This document shows positions 41,468 to 54,646 of a stretch of 64,000 bases of DNA, one piece after another. This DNA is from Gammaproteobacteria bacterium (GTDB lineage: Bacteria; Pseudomonadota; Gammaproteobacteria; Eutrophobiales; Eutrophobiaceae): assembly GCA_004297165.1 (NCBI GenBank), contig SCUJ01000006.1, forward strand, positions 248,001-312,000, read 5' to 3'. The notes below the pieces were generated by a model. The model saw only the letters and a program-made list of their open reading frames with translations, did no database searches and was not told where the DNA came from. The translations under genes and the position numbers were made by a program. Every line of letters begins with the position of its first letter. Position 1 is the stretch's first letter.

Positions 41468-42759
41468 GGCCCATATTTGTCGATTAACGCCTGATTAATC
41501 CCCACCTCGCCGGCATCGAAAACTTCTGCCAGCATTTGCCATCCCAGGTCCAATGCTGCTTCGAGGGCATAATTCACTTCGAGATTCATCATGCGATCTT
41601 CGAAGAGTTGTGAGTAATGGAGAAGTTTTTCATCCCACTTCGAGAGTCTGAACCCCATGCTCTGGCGCTCGCGCGCCTTTTTCGATTCCGCGTAAAGACG
41701 AATCATCGCATTCGCCAGGTCGCCGTGGTCTTCACGGGTGACTTTGCCGATCACCAGTTGCTTTAACCGGGAAAGAGATCCAAAAGGATCGATTCTGCCG
41801 CCGTGAAGGTAGAACTGTCCCTCTGTGATATAGCCCGTGTTATCCGGAATCGGGTGGGTGACATCGTCGCCAGGCATGGTGGTTACGCCCACGATCGTGA
41901 TCGATCCGCCACCCTCAATCAACACGGCTTTTTCATAACGCGAAGCCAGATCGGAATAGAGCGAGCCGGGATAGCCGCGGTTGGAGGGCACCTGATCCAT
42001 GGTGATCGCAATCTCCTTGATCGCATCCGCGAAGGCGGTCATGTCGGTAAGTAAAACCAGCACATCCTTGCCCTCCACGGCAAACTTCTCAGCGCACGCA
42101 AGCGCCATATCGGGCACCAACAGGCACTCGACGGGAGGATCTATCGCCCGGTGTATAAACATGACCGTTTTATTCATCGAACCGTACGCCTCGGCGTTTT
42201 CGATGAACGCCTGGTATTCCTGAAAGGTCAATCCCATGCCGCCAATAATGACCACATCGGCATCGGTTTGGTTGGCGATACGCATCAACAACTGATTGTA
42301 GGGCTCGCCGGGGATCGAAAAGATCGGAATCTTCTGCGATTTTACGAGGCAGTTGAAAAGATCGATCATCGGGATGTTGGTGCGCACCATTTCCCTGGGG
42401 ATAATCCTTTTCACCGGGTTGAATGAGGTTGTGCCGATATTCACTGTTTCTCCGACAACTTTAGGGCCACCGTCGATGGGCTCGCCCACGCCATCCAGTC
42501 TCCGCCCCAAAAGGGCATCGCCATAGGTCGCTTGCATTTCACGATTCAGAAACATCACTTTATCGTTGGTGGCGATCCCCCGGGTGCTTTTAAACACCTG
42601 TAACGTCACCTCGTCGCCATCGATTTTCAACACCGAGGCAAAGATTTTGGCGCCGTCGTGCAAATGCACCTGAGCCAGTTCTCCCAACCTTGCGCCTGCG
42701 GCGGTCACCGTGATCAGATTTCCGCGCATGTTGTTGATGCGGTCGTATACTTTTTTCAT
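41449..42759 (-). CDS. ntpB: V-type ATPase catalytic-hexamer subunit B
   Basis: This 436-residue non-catalytic nucleotide-binding subunit has [21 protein letters not shown] in place of the Walker A loop, which is degenerate as expected for subunit B. The conserved [36 protein letters not shown] and [15 protein letters not shown] follow. It alternates with subunit A in the head. Its start overlaps the A gene by four bases (ATGA), giving translational coupling and near-equal expression. Confidence 0.94.
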
Positions 42760-44537
42760 CGTAACTCAACCGATTCTTCTATTATCCGATGTGCGTTACG
42801 GTACATTTCCGAGTTAAACGGCATGAAGTTCATGTTCTTGATCTGGTTTTGCAGATTGAGGAAGAACCCGCGCGCTTCGTCATGACTCGTGAATTTGAAT
42901 TTCTTGTCGAAGATTTTGTTGATCAGCTTGAACAGGAGCATTTGTCGCTCCAGGGGGCAGTAAGCATCCTCTTTATCGAATGCGTTTTGTTGCAGATAAC
43001 TAAAGTCATACAATTCCGCCTTAAGATAGATCTGCATGTCGTCCATCGACGTGCCTTCTTCCCCCACCACTTCCATTCTGCGGCCGATTTCATTGCCCTG
43101 AAGCAGAAATTTATTGGCGCGTTTGACCATCGCGCTCCATTCGGGAATCTGATGGTCGAGTTCGTGGCCGATCGTGTCCACATACTTTGACCAGGAAATC
43201 AGGGGATCGATTGCCGGATAGCGTCTGGAGTCGGACCGTTCCCTGGATAATCCCAAAAACGCCCCGACAACGGCAAGGGTGGCTTGCGTCACGGGCTCTT
43301 CAAAGTTACCGCCGGCGGGAGATACGGCGCCGCCTATCGTGATCGACCCCTGCGCTCCATCTGCGAGGGCGATCACGCCTGATCTTTCATAGAACTCCGC
43401 GATGCGGGAGCCTAAATAGGCGGGAAACGCTTCATCGCCAGGAATCTCCTCCAGCCGGCCAGACATTTCCCGCAGCGCCTGCGCCCAGCGGGAAGTGGAG
43501 TCCGCCAGCAACAGCACATCCAGACCCATCTGACGGTAATACTCGGCAATGGTAATGCCCAGATAGATCGACGATTCGCGCGCCGCCACCGGCATGGAGG
43601 AAGTGTTGCAGACGATCACGGTGCGATTCATCAGGCTTTCGCCGGTGTAGGGATCGGTCAAGTGAGGAAACTCGCGCAGCACTTCCACCACTTCCCCGGC
43701 GCGTTCGCCGCAGGCCACCACGACGACGATATCCACTGAAGAGTATTTCGACAGATGGTGCTGCAAAACCGTCTTGCCGGCGCCGAAGGGACCGGGAGTA
43801 CAAAATGTTCCGCCTTTGATCAGCGGAAACTGCGTATCGACGATCCGAACGCCGGTGCCCATCATTTTTGTCGGTTTGATTTTCTCGCCCTGCGCCAAAG
43901 AGTTCTTGATCGGCCATTTTTGCGTCATCGTAAAGGCATGTTCGCGACCAGCCGGGTCTACGGCTTTGGCCACGATCTGATCGACATTGTAGAAGCCGCG
44001 CGGGGCAGTCCAGGTAATCCTGTAGACGCCATACAAGGCAAAGGGCACCATGATGCGGTGAGTGAAACGCCCTTCGCTGGTGGTTCCCACGGTATCTCCG
44101 CGCTTGAGCGACGCGCCTACGGCAGCGACAGGGATATAGTCCCACTTTCTTTCGCGATCGAGCGGTGCAATATAAACACCCGTGGGCAGAAAATATCCTG
44201 ACAGTTTGGCCACCTCTTCAAGCGGGTTTTGCAACCCGTCTACTATCGAAGTCAAAAGGCCGGGTCCCAATTCCGCCTCCAGGAGATCGCCGGTCAGTTC
44301 AACCTCCGTGTTGAAATCGACGCCGCGCGTATCTTCGAACACCTGGAGTTTGGCCAGGGCGCCTGCGATTTCGATCACCTCCGCCTTCAGTTTTCTGTCG
44401 CCCACCTTCACAAATGCCACTTCGCCCTGACGGACGCGCCCAGCGAATCTGACTTGCAGCAGATTACCGAACGCTTTTTCCACTTTGCCGGCAGCAGAGG
44501 CTGCTGCCGGCTTTTCCGGTGACAACGATTCACTCAT
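42756..44537 (-). CDS. ntpA: V-type ATPase catalytic subunit A
   Basis: This 593-residue catalytic subunit has Walker A GPFGAGKT, the V/A-type non-homologous insert in its N-terminal half ([21 protein letters not shown]), the catalytic glutamate in [14 protein letters not shown], and [38 protein letters not shown]. It carries out ATP hydrolysis or synthesis. Its end overlaps the B gene, and its start overlaps the DUF2764 gene by eight bases. The operon has more A and T at wobble positions than its neighbours, consistent with transfer. Confidence 0.95.
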
Positions 44538-45315
44538 AAGCGATACTCTGAATAATTGTGTTTACGATCTGTCGACCGTCATTGCGATCGAGAAGGATCC
44601 ATTGTTCCGCCAGAATCCATTGGAAAATATAAGCGAGCACTCGATCGAGTGTAAACACTTCCAGACCGACTAGCTCATCAATTTTACGGAAACGGTATTC
44701 TGTGAGGGCCTTTTGCAACTCCAAAGGATCCTCTCGATGCTGTTCGTGGAGTGAACGCAATTCTTGATATTCTTCCGGGGGGTCATACGCTTTGGCATCC
44801 TTCTGCGCCAAAATTTGCGCAACCAGCGGATCTCCCGAATCCTCGTATTGAAATTCGTAAAGCGGATCGCGCCCCTGTATTTTTGCGCGCAAAGCGGCTA
44901 TAACGAGCCTTTGTTCCCGTTCGGTCTTCAGCATCCGGCGCATGAAGCCGTTCGATCGGGCAATCTCCTCGCGAAAGCAGGCGCTGAGAAGCGAAGCAAA
45001 GTGTTTGAGGCGATCTTCCTTGTTTTCATAACGATCCATGTAGTCATATACGTAGGCTGGAAGTCCGGTACGCCCTGCCAGGGCTTCTTCCAAAGACGCT
45101 GCGTCGAAATTACCTTCGTGATTAAGAGGAAAACCGCTCCAGAAAGAGCGGATGTTCTCAATATCCATAAAATATTTGACCCGATAAACCTGGGCAAGAT
45201 CCGCCCGCGATAAATTCGTTTCAAGAAGAAATGTTATTTCTTGCAGCGACAGATCGGGAGGCGATCCGATTTGAAGCACGGGAAGAGCAGTTACCAGATA
45301 AAAGTAACGCGCCAT
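44530..45315 (-). CDS. DUF2764 protein, subunit C-like component of V-ATPase
   Basis: From the ATG at 45315 this is a 261-residue, mostly helical protein starting MARYFYLVTALPVLQIG, the DUF2764 N-terminus. It occupies the position of subunit C between E and A. In Chlamydiae, Bacteroidetes and spirochaetes DUF2764 replaces the canonical C subunit, which links the rotor axle to the K ring. That role is inferred from gene order and general fold; I know of no direct biochemical proof. Longer in-frame starts overlap the E gene and are not favoured. Confidence 0.8.
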   Translation of the reverse strand: MARYFYLVTALPVLQIGSPPDLSLQEITFLLETNLSRADLAQVYRVKYFMDIENIRSFWSGFPLNHEGNFDAASLEEALAGRTGLPAYVYDYMDRYENKEDRLKHFASLLSACFREEIARSNGFMRRMLKTEREQRLVIAALRAKIQGRDPLYEFQYEDSGDPLVAQILAQKDAKAYDPPEEYQELRSLHEQHREDPLELQKALTEYRFRKIDELVGLEVFTLDRVLAYIFQWILAEQWILLDRNDGRQIVNTIIQSIAYE

Positions 45316-45322
45316 CGTCAAG

Positions 45323-45979
45323 TTATCGACCAAAAACCCATTTTCTAAAATCTTTGCGGATAAAAGCCGACAATAACTCCCGCAGCGCATCATCGCTCAT
45401 GTCCACGGTCATATTCTTGTTCACCAAGCGTACTTTGGCCCCGCCTTTGAACGCGCCTGTCTCCACGCCTTGAGGCATCAATTTTTCAGCGACGCTGCTC
45501 ACGAGGAGAGCGGAGATTTCTTTCGGGCTGATATTCTTTGGGACATAAGCGACCAGATCGCTCACCAGTCCTTCGCGTTCGACGGCTTTAACGATAGCTT
45601 CGATGATCCGGGCAATCAGTTGCGAATCTTTCGCCTGGTCGGAGATCAACCGCTCAAGTTCAGGCGCAAATAGTGTCTCCTGGATCTGTTGTCTCAGCAT
45701 CTCCACGCCTTGCTTGCCTGACTGGAGCATCGATAATTCGAAGATTTTGCGCTCCTGCTCCATTTCGGCCTGAGCCTTGCGGATGATTATTTCTGCTTCT
45801 TTCTCTGCGTCTAAAATAATCCTGGAAGCTTCCGCTTGGGCTGATTCGAGGATCTGGGCGGCGCGTTTTTCGGCAGGCTCCAGGGTATCCTTGCGCAGGA
45901 GATCGCAGATTTTCTTGATCTTGTCCTGATCGGTATCCAATGGTTTCACGTTTCGGTCGGGAGGTTCGTTTCGTATCAT
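45323..45979 (-). CDS. ntpE: V-type ATPase peripheral-stalk subunit E
   Basis: This 218-residue protein has a long N-terminal coiled coil (AAQILESAQAEASRIILDAEKEAEIIIRKAQ ..., about 35-95) and a globular C-terminal domain ending in ALRELLSAFIRKDFRKWVF. It forms the peripheral stalk. The ATG at 45979 has AGGAG six bases upstream and is preferred to a GTG at 45994. It is the first gene of the seven-gene operon (E, DUF2764, A, B, D, I, K). A stalk partner (subunit G/H) is not seen. Confidence 0.88.
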   Translation of the reverse strand: MIRNEPPDRNVKPLDTDQDKIKKICDLLRKDTLEPAEKRAAQILESAQAEASRIILDAEKEAEIIIRKAQAEMEQERKIFELSMLQSGKQGVEMLRQQIQETLFAPELERLISDQAKDSQLIARIIEAIVKAVEREGLVSDLVAYVPKNISPKEISALLVSSVAEKLMPQGVETGAFKGGAKVRLVNKNMTVDMSDDALRELLSAFIRKDFRKWVFGR

Positions 45980-46046
45980 GTCGCTCTCCTTCACAGATCA
46001 AGCAGTCACTCAGAAGCGCCGGCGCCAGTCCGCGCACGCAAGGTTT

Positions 46047-47102: not shown

Positions 47103-48470
47103 TTAATTGGGCGCATGATTGAGCTTGAGGAAGCTGAGCAGACTGGCGGCGACCAGCGACCCCAGGGACATCAGCAGGGCCACGGACGAGAGCGGCAACC
47201 CGGCCGTGAACAGGATGCCCGCGAGAGGGGGCGCGAGCATGGAGCCGCCGCGGCCGACGCCGATGGCAAAACCGGTGCCGAAGGCCCGCGCGTGGGTCGG
47301 GAAGCCCTTGGCGAAGATCGCGTACATCCCGGTGATGGCCCCGTTGGTGAAGAATCCCGTTGCGGCGCAGACCATGGATAATAGCGCGAGGTCGGGCGCC
47401 GTTCGCCCGAAGATGAAGACCATGACGGTGGAGCACAGCATGACGCCAATGGTGATCAGTTTCACGTCGAAGCGCTGGGTCAGCAGACCGACCACTGTGC
47501 CGCCCAGCGCGCCTCCGGCATTCGCCCAGACCAGGACATTGGCCGCCGAGGAGGCCACGAAACCCATATCGACAACAATCTTGGGGATCCACTTCAACAT
47601 GAAGTAGAAGGTGATGATATGGAAGAAATAGGCCGCGGTGATGATGACTGTCAGGGCGATGAGGCCGGGACGGAAGATGTCGCTGACGGACCGGCGGCGT
47701 TCCTCCGCGGTGATTGTCGGCAACGCTGTAATGATCGAATGGCCCATCCGGCGAAGCGTTCGGTTGATCTTTTCCAGGGCGCCCGCCGGTTGCTTCTGGG
47801 ACAGCCAGTGGACCGACTCCGGTATCAGGAACCAGATCAGGGGGAGAAAGGAGATCGTGACCCCGCAACCCAGATAGAACACCGACCGCCAATCGTGGCT
47901 GGCCAGCAGTCTTGCGGCAATCAGCCCCCCGAGCACGGCGCCGCAGGGATAGCCGATGGACATCAGGGATACGCACATATCGCGGCGGTGGCTGTTGGAA
48001 TATTCGGCGGCCATCGCGTTGATTGACGCCAGCATCCCGCCGATGCCGATCCCGGTGATGATGCGCCAGATGGAGAGATCGACGAGCCTGCGGTCGAGCT
48101 CCGTCCCGAATACCGCGGCGATGACTGGGGAGACCAGGCCGCCCAGGATGGCATTGGTGGTGGTGACCATGAACATGCCGATCGCCATGGTGATGAGGCA
48201 GCCCAGCATGGTCGGCCGGCGGCCGATCTTGTCGGCCACGCCGCCCAGGTACATCGAGCCGAAGGCCATGCCGATGAGTTCCATCGACAGCACGAAACCG
48301 AGCGCGGTGCGGTCCATGCCCCATTCCGCGGCGATGCCGGGCGAGGCGAAACTGATGGACAGCACGTCGAATCCGTCGAGGGCGTTCAAGCCGATGGTGA
48401 TGGCGATGATGAGTATCTGCAGCCGGCCCATGGGGGACCGGGAAATCAAAGTACGCGGGTCATTGTTCAC
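47103..48470 (-). CDS. MFS transporter, aromatic/organic acid:H+ symporter type
   Basis: This 455-residue permease has twelve membrane segments. Its signatures resemble the AAHS/sugar-porter branch: DGFDVLSISFASPGIAAEWG in TM1, GGVADKIGRRPTMLG in the 2-3 loop, MAAEYSNSHRRDMCVSLM in the 4-5 region, and a second GLLTQRFDVK in the 8-9 loop. It probably imports a carboxylate with protons. It is divergent from the BKACE-family gene, suggesting that the carboxylate is related to that enzyme's substrate. Confidence 0.85.
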   Translation of the reverse strand: MNNDPRTLISRSPMGRLQILIIAITIGLNALDGFDVLSISFASPGIAAEWGMDRTALGFVLSMELIGMAFGSMYLGGVADKIGRRPTMLGCLITMAIGMFMVTTTNAILGGLVSPVIAAVFGTELDRRLVDLSIWRIITGIGIGGMLASINAMAAEYSNSHRRDMCVSLMSIGYPCGAVLGGLIAARLLASHDWRSVFYLGCGVTISFLPLIWFLIPESVHWLSQKQPAGALEKINRTLRRMGHSIITALPTITAEERRRSVSDIFRPGLIALTVIITAAYFFHIITFYFMLKWIPKIVVDMGFVASSAANVLVWANAGGALGGTVVGLLTQRFDVKLITIGVMLCSTVMVFIFGRTAPDLALLSMVCAATGFFTNGAITGMYAIFAKGFPTHARAFGTGFAIGVGRGGSMLAPPLAGILFTAGLPLSSVALLMSLGSLVAASLLSFLKLNHAPN

Positions 48471-48506: not shown

Positions 48507-48536
48507 TTGCTTTCCGGATGATACATCCCTTATAAA
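48507..48536 (+). promoter_or_regulatory. Sigma70-type promoter of the BKACE-family gene
   Basis: TTGCTT (48507-48512) and TATAAA (48531-48536) are 18 bases apart, predicting a start near 48543 and a leader of about 30 bases that contains the Shine-Dalgarno GAGGGGAG. It lies in the short divergent gap shared with the MFS gene. Confidence 0.5.
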
Positions 48537-48571
48537 TGCAGATTCAATCCAGACCTGAGGGGAGTCGTGTT

Positions 48572-49705
48572 ATGTCAGAAGACCACAGCATCAACCGGGA
48601 CAAGAAGGAAGCGGTACAGGAGTTATGTGCGCGCGTTTCGCGCAGGGATTTCACCTTGACTTCGTTGGCCATGTTCGCAGCCTCCGCCGGCACTGTCTTC
48701 GCCCAGAGCGGCCGGCTCGAACCGCCGAAGACGCCGGAAGTTGTGAAAGGCAAGATGCCGCCCATCCCGGTGTCGCCGGAACAGGCCCAGGCAATGTTCC
48801 CGGTCGATCAGGAACCCAGGATCACGACCATGGACAAGCCGTTGCTCATCATGTCTTCCTGCCCCGGCTGGCAGATCGGCGGCAAGCGTTATCCGGCCGT
48901 GCCGTTCACCATCGAGGATCAGGCGCAGGAGATCGCCGATTCGTTCAACGCGGGCGCGGTGGGACATCACGTCCATCCCCGTGATCCGAAGACCGGCCTG
49001 GCCCAGATCAGCGCCGCGCTGCTGAAGCAGGTGCTGGATGCCTCTTTCGACAAGGTTGGCGATTTCGTCACCATGTCGCACACCTGGTATCCGCGCGAGG
49101 GCGGCATCGATTACATCGTGGACACCGAGGAATTGCTGGAATGGGGGGAGGGCAATAAATACTGTCAGGGCGCGGTGGTCCTGCCCTTCTCGAATAACGT
49201 CAGGGCCAACGTGGATAAAGGTTTACGGTGGCTGGAGGCGCACGATGTCAAACCACTTTTCGAGTTCTACGACACCTCGGCCCAGCTCCATTTCAAACAA
49301 TTGATGGATGAAGGCGCGGCCAAACCGCCTTACGCGATCCACGTCAACCTGGGCAAGCACGATTCCACTGCCATCCACCAGGACCCGGGGTCCTATCTGA
49401 ACGCTATCGCCAATCTTGACATCGTCAAGAGGACCTTCCCTGGAGCGCACATTGGCTGGCGCACAGGCGGGCGCAACTGGCTGCCGATCATGGTGCTCGG
49501 GGTTATTATGGGGGTCGATGTGGTGCAGGTCGGCATCGAGGACGCGTTCTGGCGCTGGCCGCACCGGGATGAAATCATCAAGAAGAATTCCGACAGCGTG
49601 AAGTGGGCCGTCGATATCGCCAATATTCTCGGCCGCCGGGTCGTCACCGATCCCAACGAAGCGCGCCGCATAATGGATATGAAACTCACCTCCAAGTTTG
49701 CCTGA
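48572..49705 (+). CDS. BKACE-family (DUF849) enzyme with Tat signal
   Basis: This 377-residue protein of the beta-keto acid cleavage (3-keto-5-aminohexanoate cleavage) family carries the zinc motif HHVHPRDPKTG, VNLGKHDS and GIEDAFWRW with the Glu zinc ligand and catalytic Asp. It differs from typical members by a 50-residue N-terminus with SRRDFTLTSLAMFAASAGTVFAQ, a twin-arginine export signal. ATG 48572 has GAGGGGAG eight bases upstream. Classical BKACE enzymes use acetyl-CoA in the cytoplasm; a periplasmic location would exclude CoA, so the reaction here is uncertain. A strong terminator follows. Confidence 0.85.
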   Translation: MSEDHSINRDKKEAVQELCARVSRRDFTLTSLAMFAASAGTVFAQSGRLEPPKTPEVVKGKMPPIPVSPEQAQAMFPVDQEPRITTMDKPLLIMSSCPGWQIGGKRYPAVPFTIEDQAQEIADSFNAGAVGHHVHPRDPKTGLAQISAALLKQVLDASFDKVGDFVTMSHTWYPREGGIDYIVDTEELLEWGEGNKYCQGAVVLPFSNNVRANVDKGLRWLEAHDVKPLFEFYDTSAQLHFKQLMDEGAAKPPYAIHVNLGKHDSTAIHQDPGSYLNAIANLDIVKRTFPGAHIGWRTGGRNWLPIMVLGVIMGVDVVQVGIEDAFWRWPHRDEIIKKNSDSVKWAVDIANILGRRVVTDPNEARRIMDMKLTSKFA

Positions 49706-49720
49706 TCCCCGCCTCGAAGC

Positions 49721-49756
49721 GGCGCTGTCCACAAAGTGGGCGGCGCCGTTTTTTTT
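49721..49756 (+). terminator. Rho-independent terminator of the BKACE-family gene
   Basis: GGCGCTGTCCAC and GTGGGCGGCGCC form a 12-base stem (10 pairs matching) with an AAA loop, followed by a run of eight T. It lies 15 bases after the stop codon and separates this gene from the nar promoter region. Confidence 0.85.
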
Positions 49757-49815: not shown

Positions 49816-49829
49816 TTGATATTTATCAA
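49816..49829. promoter_or_regulatory. FNR box upstream of the nar operon
   Basis: TTGAT-ATTT-ATCAA is a perfect match to the FNR/Anr consensus. Centred at 49822.5, it would place a class II start near 49864 and leave a leader of about 170 bases before the cytochrome gene. The 49757-50032 stretch holds no gene. Oxygen-responsive activation of the operon is strongly suggested. Confidence 0.75.
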
Positions 49830-50032
49830 TTAATCCAAGGCGCTTCTGCTTTACCCTTGCCTCGCCCATCCGGTTCCATCCCGATAACCACCAAATCGGT
49901 CAAGAAAAGTATGCGGCATTAATGAGGTTTTCAGGGCATAAGTTTTGTAGGGGCGGCGTCCTGGGGCCGGCTAAATCAAGAGCATATTTCATATCAGCGA
50001 GCGTTAGGATCGATTTTAAGGTTGAAAAAGTT

Positions 50033-50971
50033 ATGAATAGAGAATTTCGAAAAAATAAGCGAGTGTCTGTTCTGGGGACTTTGACGATCGTACTCGGTTT
50101 GAGTTTTTCCACTCAAACCCTGGCGGCGGAGCCGGGCGAACAGGAATACACCACATTCTGCGGGATCTGCCATACCATCGGCGGGGGAACGCTGATCGGT
50201 CCGGATCTGGCCGGGGTCCATGACCGCAGACCGCAGGAATGGCTGGAAAAATTCGTGGCCTCCTCGACGTCCGTGATCGGCAGCGGCGATGCCTATGCCG
50301 TCGAACTGTTCGAGAAGTTCAACAAGATCACCATGCCCGACGCCACGGTGCCGCCCGAGAAGATCAAGGAAATCCTGAATTACATCAAGATCAGGGCCGC
50401 GCAACCCGCCCCGGCTACCGCTGCTGCGACCGCATCTCCGGCGACAGCGACGCCGGCCGACGCAACTGCCCCAGCGGCGCCAACCGCGGCCCCGGCGGCA
50501 CCGATCAAGGTAGCCACGGAAGAAGACATCCTGCTCGGGCAAAACCTGTTCGAGGGGACTGCCCGGCTGGAGAAAAGCGGGCCATCCTGTGTCACCTGCC
50601 ATCATATAAAGAATGATGCCATCATCGGCGGCGGCGTACTTGCGAAGGAATTGACCGATGTATTTACCCGTCTCGGCGGCACCGGCGTCCGCGCAGTCCT
50701 GAACAGCACCCCCTTCCCGGTCATGCAGGCGGCCTACAAAGGCAAACCGCTTTCGGAGCAGGAAATATTCGCTCTGCTGGCCTTCCTCGAAGACGCCGGG
50801 GCGAAGCACCTCTTCCAGCACCCCAAGGATTATGGCACCGGTCTGCTGCTCAGCGGATTCATCGGCGCCGCCGTATTGCTGGTGCTCTACTCGCTGATCT
50901 GGTTGGCCAGAAAGAAGGACTCGGTCAATCAGAAGATCTTCGACCGGCAGGTCAAGTCAACCTGGGAATGA
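50033..50971 (+). CDS. Membrane-anchored dihaem cytochrome c of the nar operon (NarC-like)
   Basis: This 312-residue protein has a signal peptide (to about TLAAE) and a first haem domain with CGICH (43-47). An Ala/Pro/Thr-rich linker follows (about 123-160), then a second haem domain with CVTCH (186-190) and a C-terminal membrane helix (about 266-285, LLLSGFIGAAVLLVLYSLIWLA) with a short basic tail. It lies 60 bases before narG in the same direction. A dihaem cytochrome in this place is known from Thermus and some halophiles and sulfur oxidisers as NarC. It may connect nitrate reductase to periplasmic electron carriers. Confidence 0.85.
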   Translation: MNREFRKNKRVSVLGTLTIVLGLSFSTQTLAAEPGEQEYTTFCGICHTIGGGTLIGPDLAGVHDRRPQEWLEKFVASSTSVIGSGDAYAVELFEKFNKITMPDATVPPEKIKEILNYIKIRAAQPAPATAAATASPATATPADATAPAAPTAAPAAPIKVATEEDILLGQNLFEGTARLEKSGPSCVTCHHIKNDAIIGGGVLAKELTDVFTRLGGTGVRAVLNSTPFPVMQAAYKGKPLSEQEIFALLAFLEDAGAKHLFQHPKDYGTGLLLSGFIGAAVLLVLYSLIWLARKKDSVNQKIFDRQVKSTWE

Positions 50972-51031: not shown

Positions 51032-54000
51032 ATGAGCTGGATACAAGACATCATCTCTCCACAGACACGGCAATGGGAAGAATTCTACAGAAACCGGTTT
51101 CAGCATGATCGCATCGTCAGAAGCACCCATGGCGTGAACTGCACCGGCGGTTGTTCCTGGCAGGTCCATGTAAAGGAAGGCATCGTGGTGTGGGAGACCC
51201 AGCAACTGGATTATCCGCTGCTGGAGGATTCGCTGCCCCCGTACGAGCCGCGGGGTTGTCAGCGCGGCATTTCCTACTCGTGGTATCTATATAGTCCGTT
51301 GCGCATCAAATATCCGCTGATCCGCAGCGCCCTTGTCGACGCCTATCTGGAAGAAAAGAAAAAGACCGGCGATCCACTCAAGGCATGGGAGGCATTGCAG
51401 GCCAATCCGCAGAAGCGCAAGGCCTACCAGAATGCCCGCGGCAAGGGCGGTTTCCGGCGCGCCCATTGGGACGATGTTCTGGAGATCATGGCCGCGGCGA
51501 ATATTTACACCGCCAAGAAGCACGGCCCGGATCGGGTCATCGGTTTCTCGCCGATTCCAGCCATGTCAATGCTGAGCTACGCGGCGGGCGGCCGTTTCCT
51601 GCAACTCTTCGGCGGCGTCAATCTGAGCTTCTATGACTGGTATTGCGACCTGCCGACCGCCTTCCCCGAGATTTGGGGCGAACAGACAGACGTGTGCGAG
51701 AGCGCGGACTGGTACAACGCCAAGATGATCGCGGACATGGGCGCGTGCCTGAACATGACCCGCACGCCTGACTGCCATTTCTTCGCGGAATCCCGGCACA
51801 ACGGCACCAAGGCGGTCGTCTTCTCCCCGGACTTCTCCCAGGTCTGCAAGTACGCCGACCAATGGGTACCGCTGCACGCGGGATCCGATGGCGCGTTCTG
51901 GATGGCGGTCTCGCATGTGATCCTGAAGGAGTTCCACCACGACAAGAAAACCCCGTACTTCCTGGATTATGCCAAGCAGTACACCGACAGTCCGATGCTG
52001 GTAAAGCTGGAGAAGGAGGGCAATCACTACAAGCCCGGCCGTCTGCTGCGTGCGAACGAACTCCAGGCCCACAAGGACATCAGCAACGGCGATTGGAAGT
52101 TCGTCAACATCGATGAGGGCACCGGCAACCTCGTGATCCCGAAAGGCGCGATGGGCCATCGTTGGGACAAGGAGCCAGGCAACTGGAACATGAAGTTCGA
52201 GAACTCCGTGGACAACAAATCCTACAACCCCACCCTCAGCCTGCTCGCGAAGAACGATGGAGTGTTGCAGACGGAATTCGTCGAATGGGGTCTGGACAAA
52301 AAGGCCCTGCGAGGCGTTCCGGTCAAAAACATCGCCACTGTCAACGGCACGGTACCGGTCACCACGGTCTATGATCTCATCATGGCGCAATACGGCGTCG
52401 GCCGCGGCCTGGCTGGCGAATATCCCAAGGATTACACCGACAAGGATGCCGCCTACACCCCGGCCTGGCAGGAGATCTTCACCGGCGTGGATTCGAAGAC
52501 CGTCCTCCAGTTCGCCAGGGAATGGGCGAATACCGCCAATACGACCCAGGGCAAGTGCATGATCATCATTGGGGCGGGCATCAATCACTGGTACCACGCC
52601 AACCTGATGTACCGCGCCGGCGCCATGGCCCTCATGCTGTCCGGTTGCGTGGGCCGCAACGGTGGCGGTCTGAACCATTATGTCGGCCAGGAGAAGCTCG
52701 CCCCCGTGGATTCCTGGGGCACGATCGCCTTCGGCCGCGACTGGGTGGACGCCGTCCGGCTGCAACAGGCCCCGCTCTGGCACTATATCAATACCTGCCA
52801 ATACCGGTATGACGGGCAATATTCCCGCTACAACACGGTGCCCGACAACGAGATGACCCGCGCACACACGGCGGACACGATCTTCAAATCGGTGCGCAAC
52901 GGCTGGATGCCGTTCTATCCGCAGTTCAAACAGAACACCCTGGATATCTCCAAACAGGCGATCAAGGCCGGGGCCAAAACGGACGACGACATCAAGAAAT
53001 ATGTGCTGGACAAGCTGAAGTCCCGGGAGATCGAATACTCCATCGCCGATCCCGAGGCCCCGGAAAACCACCCCAGGGTCTGGTACATCTGGCGCGGCAA
53101 CGCCATTACCGGCAGCATGAAGGGCCATGAATACTGCCTGAAGCATTACCTCGGCACCCACAACAATGTCATCGCCAAGGATGCGGAAGATCACACCAAG
53201 GAAATGAAGTGGCACGATGTCGCCCCGGTCGGCAAGATGGACCTCGTGGTCGACTTGAACTTCCGCATGGACTCCTCGGCGCTGTATTCCGATATCGTCC
53301 TGCCCGCCGCCTCCTGGTACGAAAAGGCGGATCTCAACAGCACCGACCTGCATTCCTTCATTCACCCGCTGTCGCAGGCCGTGGCCCCCGTCTGGGAATC
53401 CAAGACGGATTGGGACATCTTCCGCAGCATCGCGAAGGCGACCAGCGAACTGGCCAAGACTCATTTTGCCGAACCCCAGAAAGATATCGTCGCCTCGCCG
53501 CTGTCCCACGACAGCGCCGACGAAATCACCCAGCCGACGATCAAGGACTGGTACCACGGGGAATGCGAGGCCGTTCCGGGCAAGTCCATGCACAAACTGG
53601 CTGTGGTCAATCGCGACTACACCAAGCTCTACGACAAATACATCACGCTCGGCGACAACATCAAGGCCAGGGGCCTCGGCGCGCATGGCAACCACTTCCT
53701 CTGCGCCGACGAATACGATCTGATGATCGAGTCCCGGCATTTCCCCACCCGGACCATGGACGGCAAGGTCTATCCCTCCATCGAGGAGGACGAGTGGGCG
53801 GCCAATGCGGTGTTGCACCTCTCCTCCCTGACCAACGGCAAACTCAACGTCCGGGCCTACGAGAACATGGAGAAGAAGACGGGCCTCAGCCTGGTCGATC
53901 TCGGGAAGGGCAGCGAGGACGTGAGGATTACCTATGCCGACCTGCAAGCCCAGCCGCGGCGCTATAACACCTCGCCGCTGTGGTCCGGATTGATGAATGA

Positions 54001-54646
54001 CGGCCGGGCCTATGCCGCTTACACCTACAACTACGACAAGTTGGTGCCATGGCGGACCCTGACCGGACGGCAGCACTTCTACCTCGATCACGAGATGTAC
54101 ATCGGTTACGGCGAGCATCTGCCTACCTACAAGCCGGCGCCGAAGCCGGAACTGTACGGCGACCTGAAAGAGACGATGAAGCAAGGCGATGCCCTGGTGC
54201 TGAATTACCTCACCCCGCATGGCAAGTGGCACATCCACTCGACCTACATGGAAACCCTGCGCATGCTCACCTTGTCGCGCGGTTGCGAACCCTGCTGGCT
54301 CAGCGAGGTGGACGCCAAGAAACTGGGTATTGAGGACAACGACTGGGTCGAGGTGCATAACGATCACGGCGTCTACTGCACGCGCGCGGTGGTCAGCACC
54401 CGCATCCCCCGCGGCGTCTGCATCGTGTACCACGTCCCGGAGCGCACTGTCGGCATTCCCAAGTCGCAGATCCGCGGCAACAAGCGGGCCGGCGGTCACA
54501 ACAGCGTGACCCGTATCCATCTGAAACCGAATTACCTCTCGGGCGGATATGGCCAGTTCAGCTATCACTTCAACTACTGGGGGCCGATCGCTCCCCAGCG
54601 CGACACACACGTGATAGTCAAGAAGATGAATAAAGTGGTTTTCTAA
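51032..54646 (+). CDS. narG: Respiratory nitrate reductase, alpha subunit
   Basis: This 1204-residue catalytic subunit binds the bis-MGD molybdenum cofactor and reduces nitrate to nitrite on the cytoplasmic side. The FS0 cluster ligands His33, Cys37, Cys41 and Cys76 are in place ([10 protein letters not shown] and PRGCQRG). Other conserved parts are [55 protein letters not shown] and the C-terminal [23 protein letters not shown]. The N-terminus lacks a twin-arginine export signal, as expected for the inward-facing NarG type. AGGTAGAA lies before the start, and a similar site precedes narH. Confidence 0.97.

Follow-up and report, generated by a model that had tools for sequence, protein, structure and literature searches.

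The gene and its surroundings

The window, a stretch of 64,000 nucleotides of gammaproteobacterial DNA, carries on its forward strand at 48572..49705 a coding sequence of 377 amino acids plus stop, with no internal stop codon. The encoded protein belongs to the BKACE family, as the preliminary description had proposed: PF05853 matches residues 104–369 with 94.8 bits (E 7.2e-27), well above the Pfam gathering cut-off of 24.8, and the fold is that of a Kce-type TIM barrel. The NCBIfam equivalog models for Kce (58.9 bits against a cut-off of 382), 3,5-dioxohexanoate (67.5 against 430) and 3-oxoadipate (54.2 against 350) score far under their cut-offs, which points to a superfamily member that yet has none of the named activities. 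No second BKACE gene was found in the genome of the window. The gene is one of a clade of four from three genomes, here termed Tat-BKACE: the window gene itself (P0001), L018 and L017, both from the same-genus genome G002 and 79% and 65% identical to it, respectively, and L019 (66%) from genome G019. Genome annotations would probably label such genes as "3-keto-5-aminohexanoate cleavage protein", which would be misleading for this clade.

The gene is preceded by a likely promoter, TTGCTT-18-TATAAA (48507..48536, plus strand), which was read by eye, is unlisted by the consensus scan and is conserved in L018. A palindrome, GGATGATACATCC, identical in L018, lies between the likely -35 and -10 elements (48516-48528), a position that suggests a regulator and makes it a possible operator. 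An upstream start codon at 48536 is probably not used, since it falls inside the conserved TATAAA.

On the opposite strand, a divergent MFS transporter gene (47103..48470, minus strand) encodes a protein that comes closest to the aromatic acid/H+ symport family, with 300.7 bits to that model, under its cut-off of 418.55. The divergent pair also occurs in L018, while the 65–66% relatives L017 and L019 have other neighbors; the transporter may be linked to the enzyme. Downstream, a terminator-like hairpin with a T run (49716..49752, plus strand; one such hairpin found against a shuffle mean of 1.7) would end the unit. Beyond it lie an FNR-type box, TTGATATTTATCAA (49816-49829), the window's sole perfect match to this type, and then two genes, 49922-50971 for a membrane cytochrome c and 51032-54646 for a NarG-like molybdopterin oxidoreductase. 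The clade gene precedes the cytochrome c and NarG-like genes in both the window and L018, and a link to nitrate respiration was considered. It was dropped because the hairpin and a separate FNR-type box intervene and no nar genes neighbor L017 and L019 in the stretch read, so the two genes are regarded as neighbors rather than partners.

Two further observations concern the surroundings. A DUF2165 small membrane protein is encoded upstream of the clade gene at L017 (2613-3083), with a similar frame at the same place in L019; a DUF2165 search of the window's genome gave no match, nor did its controls. Elsewhere in the window, the minus strand at 42756-45994 encodes an A/V-type ATPase catalytic subunit and, alongside it, DUF2764 and a weak V-ATPase G-like hit that stays under the cut-off.

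Barrel fold and active-site residues

The catalytic domain is predicted by profile alignment and by a structural model to be a TIM barrel spanning residues 87–371 (48830..49684, plus strand). The model, built from 11 sequences, has a mean pLDDT of 60.9 and a pTM of 0.68; one built from two sequences (pLDDT 34.2) was discarded. When superimposed onto Kce (2y7d_A), model residues 86–371 give a Z score of 28.5 and an rmsd of 2.7 over 259 aligned residues. The other top matches are further DUF849 proteins as well as BKACE15 (Z 27.3), a cis-epoxysuccinate hydrolase (25.8) and ObcA (24.9), and the next rows fall to 16.9. All the best matches span residues about 86–375, which places the first 85 residues outside the barrel. 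Two loops that hold much of the change, residues 261–272 and 324–335, have a pLDDT below 50, which is too low to derive their geometry. Kce and BKACE15, which use acetyl-CoA, are about 22–24% identical to the window protein over the structural alignment and have in common with it the barrel, the zinc ligands, the Glu base and the Tyr. In both, the barrel starts almost at the beginning of the chain and no signal precedes it, whereas the window protein carries a predicted N-terminal signal region.

The zinc ligands H133 and H135 form an HVH motif (48968..48976, plus strand) and are both kept in all 57 other homologues; alignments give E323 (49538..49540, plus strand) as the third ligand. E231 aligns with E143 of Kce and E171 of BKACE15, and Y233 with Y145 of Kce (49262..49270, plus strand). 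The Kce numbers E143 and R226 agree with a constant chain-numbering offset and with Tyr145, a number given in PMC12871164. The roles of these residues come from excerpts of two studies, in which E171 is the base of BKACE15, R254 having been proposed earlier (PMC11961710), and Tyr145/Tyr173 mark the Tyr position (PMC12871164).

One position departs from this conserved set. Alignments place Q319 (49526..49528, plus strand) where Kce has R226 and BKACE15 R254, and a profile-profile alignment sets it on the same Arg. That residue is Arg in 57 of the 57 other homologues aligned and in all nine viral-contig BKACEs that were aligned (9 of 14 loci), and it is Gln in the three clade members readable there, the fourth being masked, all from one bacterial family. 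The count of 57 omits the four clade rows, two sequences that are not BKACE-like (L077, L079), two that are second or partial views (L025, L026) and three excluded by name (L076, L078, L028); the first residue alignment also left out repeat views (L002-L004, L013, L014, L016, L020-L023, L028). The preliminary description had called the zinc and catalytic motifs intact. This stands for H133, H135 and E323 and for E231 and Y233, but not for the catalytic set as a whole, in which Gln319 takes the place of an Arg that is otherwise universal. A second departure lies beyond the E-x-Y strand, where residues 260–275 (49349..49396, plus strand) form a loop specific to the clade, LGKHDSTAIHQDPGSY (KHD...IHQD), present in all four genes in place of the Gly-rich loop of the others, e.g. 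GIPWGAP.

The window protein can be compared with two relatives that depart from the classical reaction. BsfD of the flavophos pathway (PDB 9ZSC and others) is a BKACE-superfamily member with changed chemistry that still uses acetyl-CoA; in the portion of PMC12871164 that describes its sites, zinc is bound by His48, His50 and Glu247, and the CoA adenine is held by Arg226 and Lys254. BsfD has Phe where the window protein keeps Tyr, and it keeps the Arg (R243 by alignment count) that is Gln in the window protein. Its Arg226 corresponds to R301, which the window protein retains, so that some contact with CoA could persist. The D-tartrate-forming cis-epoxysuccinate hydrolase CESH[D] (PDB 5ZMU, 5ZMY) shares the fold (the match with Z 25.8) and is given in excerpts of PMC6429283 as a CoA-free hydrolase acting by one-step hydrolysis, with two Kce ligands kept and Glu14 as the third metal ligand. 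Its catalytic set is R11, D115 and E190. A CoA-free step on this fold is thus plausible, although the metal site of the window protein, with all three Kce-type ligands including E323, is of the Kce type and not that of CESH[D].

A different type of BKACE was seen in the same bacterial family at L005 (988-2025) and L006 (1453-2499): its N-terminal extension lacks a signal, the Glu base is replaced by Ala, and the Arg is kept.

The N-terminus and the translation start

The first 44 residues (48572..48703, plus strand) form a predicted Tat signal peptide. The twin-arginine motif SRRDFT (residues 23–28; 48638..48655, plus strand) is followed by an uncharged stretch with a mean hydropathy of 1.06 that ends in VFA|QSG, with a predicted cleavage site VFA/QS. 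We evaluated this region with a home-made rule, which asks for RR no further along than residue 40 and, after it, an uncharged hydrophobic run of 13 residues. Of 20000 shuffles of residues 2–60, 50 passed the rule, as did two window ORFs out of the 98 that reach 150 amino acids, the gene under study and one other. Among the 65 rows of the BKACE search, it was passed by four, exactly the clade genes, and no Tat-type N-terminus was found by it in the remaining rows. SRRxFT is kept in four of four clade genes, though residues 1–44 are just 34% identical (15/44) between P0001 and L017, and the 40-residue linker that leads from the signal to the barrel is likewise conserved in the clade. The window's genome also encodes a TatC, found in a search for that protein with E 4.3e-68. 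The presence of a Tat-type N-terminus on this BKACE protein, the central claim of the preliminary description, is therefore confirmed, and the comparison with homologues that share it finds the same type of signal in four genes of three genomes. Export of the folded, metallated protein to the periplasm would follow from such a signal. Our literature search found no paper joining "3-keto-5-aminohexanoate cleavage" with "twin-arginine", or "DUF849" with "Tat"; among the 20 matches listed of 849 in a broader search, one, PMC10673610, holds the enzyme name once.

The description had also raised the question of whether translation begins after the Tat region. A ribosome-binding site, GAGGGGAG (48557..48564, plus strand), precedes the ATG at 48572, and a strong site lies ahead of the equivalent start in all four clade genes. 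Over codons 1–44, dN/dS is about 0.14 between P0001 and L018 (0.182/1.34) and about 0.13 between L017 and L019 (0.051/0.39), which indicates that the N-terminal stretch is translated and under purifying selection.

Could the protein nevertheless be an ordinary cytoplasmic, acetyl-CoA-dependent BKACE, with an N-terminus that is only Tat-like or no longer directs export? The retention of the zinc ligands, E231, Y233 and R301 is what such an enzyme would display, and the described relatives use acetyl-CoA, CESH[D] aside, as far as excerpts of PMC11961710, PMC12871164 and PMC6429283 go. We nonetheless consider this reading unlikely: the RR motif is kept in all four genes against an otherwise divergent N-terminus, the motif occurs in no examined BKACE row outside the clade, the invariant Arg has become Gln, and conservation extends over the 40-residue linker as well.

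A second start could instead give rise to two forms, one exported and one cytoplasmic. M87, where the classical BKACE barrel and the profile match to classical BKACEs begin, is conserved in four of four clade genes, and AGGA stands 8 nt before it in P0001 and L018. AGGA is absent from this position in L017 and L019, however, and the conserved promoter and strong ribosome-binding site belong to the first start, which makes dual localization quite improbable.

Proposed function and distribution of the clade

We hold it slightly more probable than not that the clade gene encodes a Tat-exported, zinc-dependent, CoA-independent periplasmic enzyme, either a lyase or a hydrolase, whose substrate would be a small carboxylic acid and which is possibly linked to the transporter. 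The barrel would fold and be loaded with zinc in the cytoplasm and would then be exported to the periplasm by the Tat pathway. There, zinc held by H133, H135 and E323 would bind a small oxo- or hydroxy-carboxylate, with E231 as the base, aided by Y233. Q319 and the new KHD...IHQD loop may allow water to attack the carbon skeleton, in a hydrolytic retro-Claisen reaction, with no transfer to acetyl-CoA; alternatively, the skeleton could be split without a nucleophile, by retro-aldol cleavage or decarboxylation. The divergent aromatic-acid/H+-type symporter may carry the product or the substrate. That the same barrel instead serves as a non-catalytic binding or sensing protein in the periplasm, as the long branch and the loss of an otherwise universal active-site Arg might suggest, seems to us a shade less probable even than dual localization, given that the zinc ligands, the Glu base and the Tyr are kept wherever readable and that the new loop is strictly conserved, which together suggest catalysis.

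CoA is not expected in the periplasm, and the clade protein would accordingly make no use of it. The preliminary description had reasoned in this way that the reaction must differ from the classical acetyl-CoA-dependent cleavage. The replacement of Arg by Gln strengthens this proposal without proving it, while the retained R301, a contact for CoA adenine in BsfD, weighs on the other side; on balance, the enzyme probably performs a different, coenzyme-A-free reaction. Export, the loss of CoA use, the type of reaction and the role of the transporter are what we infer from these comparisons. More tentatively, the clade may represent a novel type of enzyme, a zinc C-C hydrolase or lyase of the periplasm that needs no cofactor and derives from an acetyl-CoA-dependent ancestor, which would have gained a Tat signal, lost the universal Arg and built the KHD...IHQD active-site loop, with water replacing the thioester. 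A clade that is exported and retains the zinc site with a changed Arg would constitute a natural experiment on how an enzyme family sheds its cofactor upon moving to another compartment. It would also make the disputed role of this Arg, earlier proposed as the base and later displaced by the Glu in the account excerpted from PMC11961710, testable by comparison.

Within the genomes searched, the clade is found only in one gammaproteobacterial family. A clade profile matched in three of the 53 genomes of this family, which also make up the whole set searched for the order, and phylum-wide in one of 398 genomes, the window's own; it detected no member in the other 368 of the 369 class genomes. 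Three further class genomes gave weak partial matches (E 6.9e-9 to 7.2e-7) onto classical-looking BKACE frames. A scan of named genomes, which is pattern-limited and did not return the L017-type gene, gave one locus, MGYR01000008.1, from a gammaproteobacterial MAG. The viral collection scanned with A1 and A2 yielded no relative, and the 63 records of a plasmid search were all below 60% identity, those among the 20 matches listed being at most 28% identical. In a tree of 60 rows, a branch of 2.9 changes per column (support 100/100) separates the three clade rows used from all others; the tree tool also flags long branches that join in other parts of the tree, so that the tree does not fix the nearest relative of the clade.

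Two observations on individual sequences may be added. In the clade gene of L019 (6824-7906), about 22 residues are missing at the first barrel strand with the frame still open, as a result of a real deletion, decay or an assembly fault. Fourteen contigs of the viral collection (L080-L093) also carry BKACE genes, which are 40–45% identical to the classical query and may be either phage genes or host flanks.
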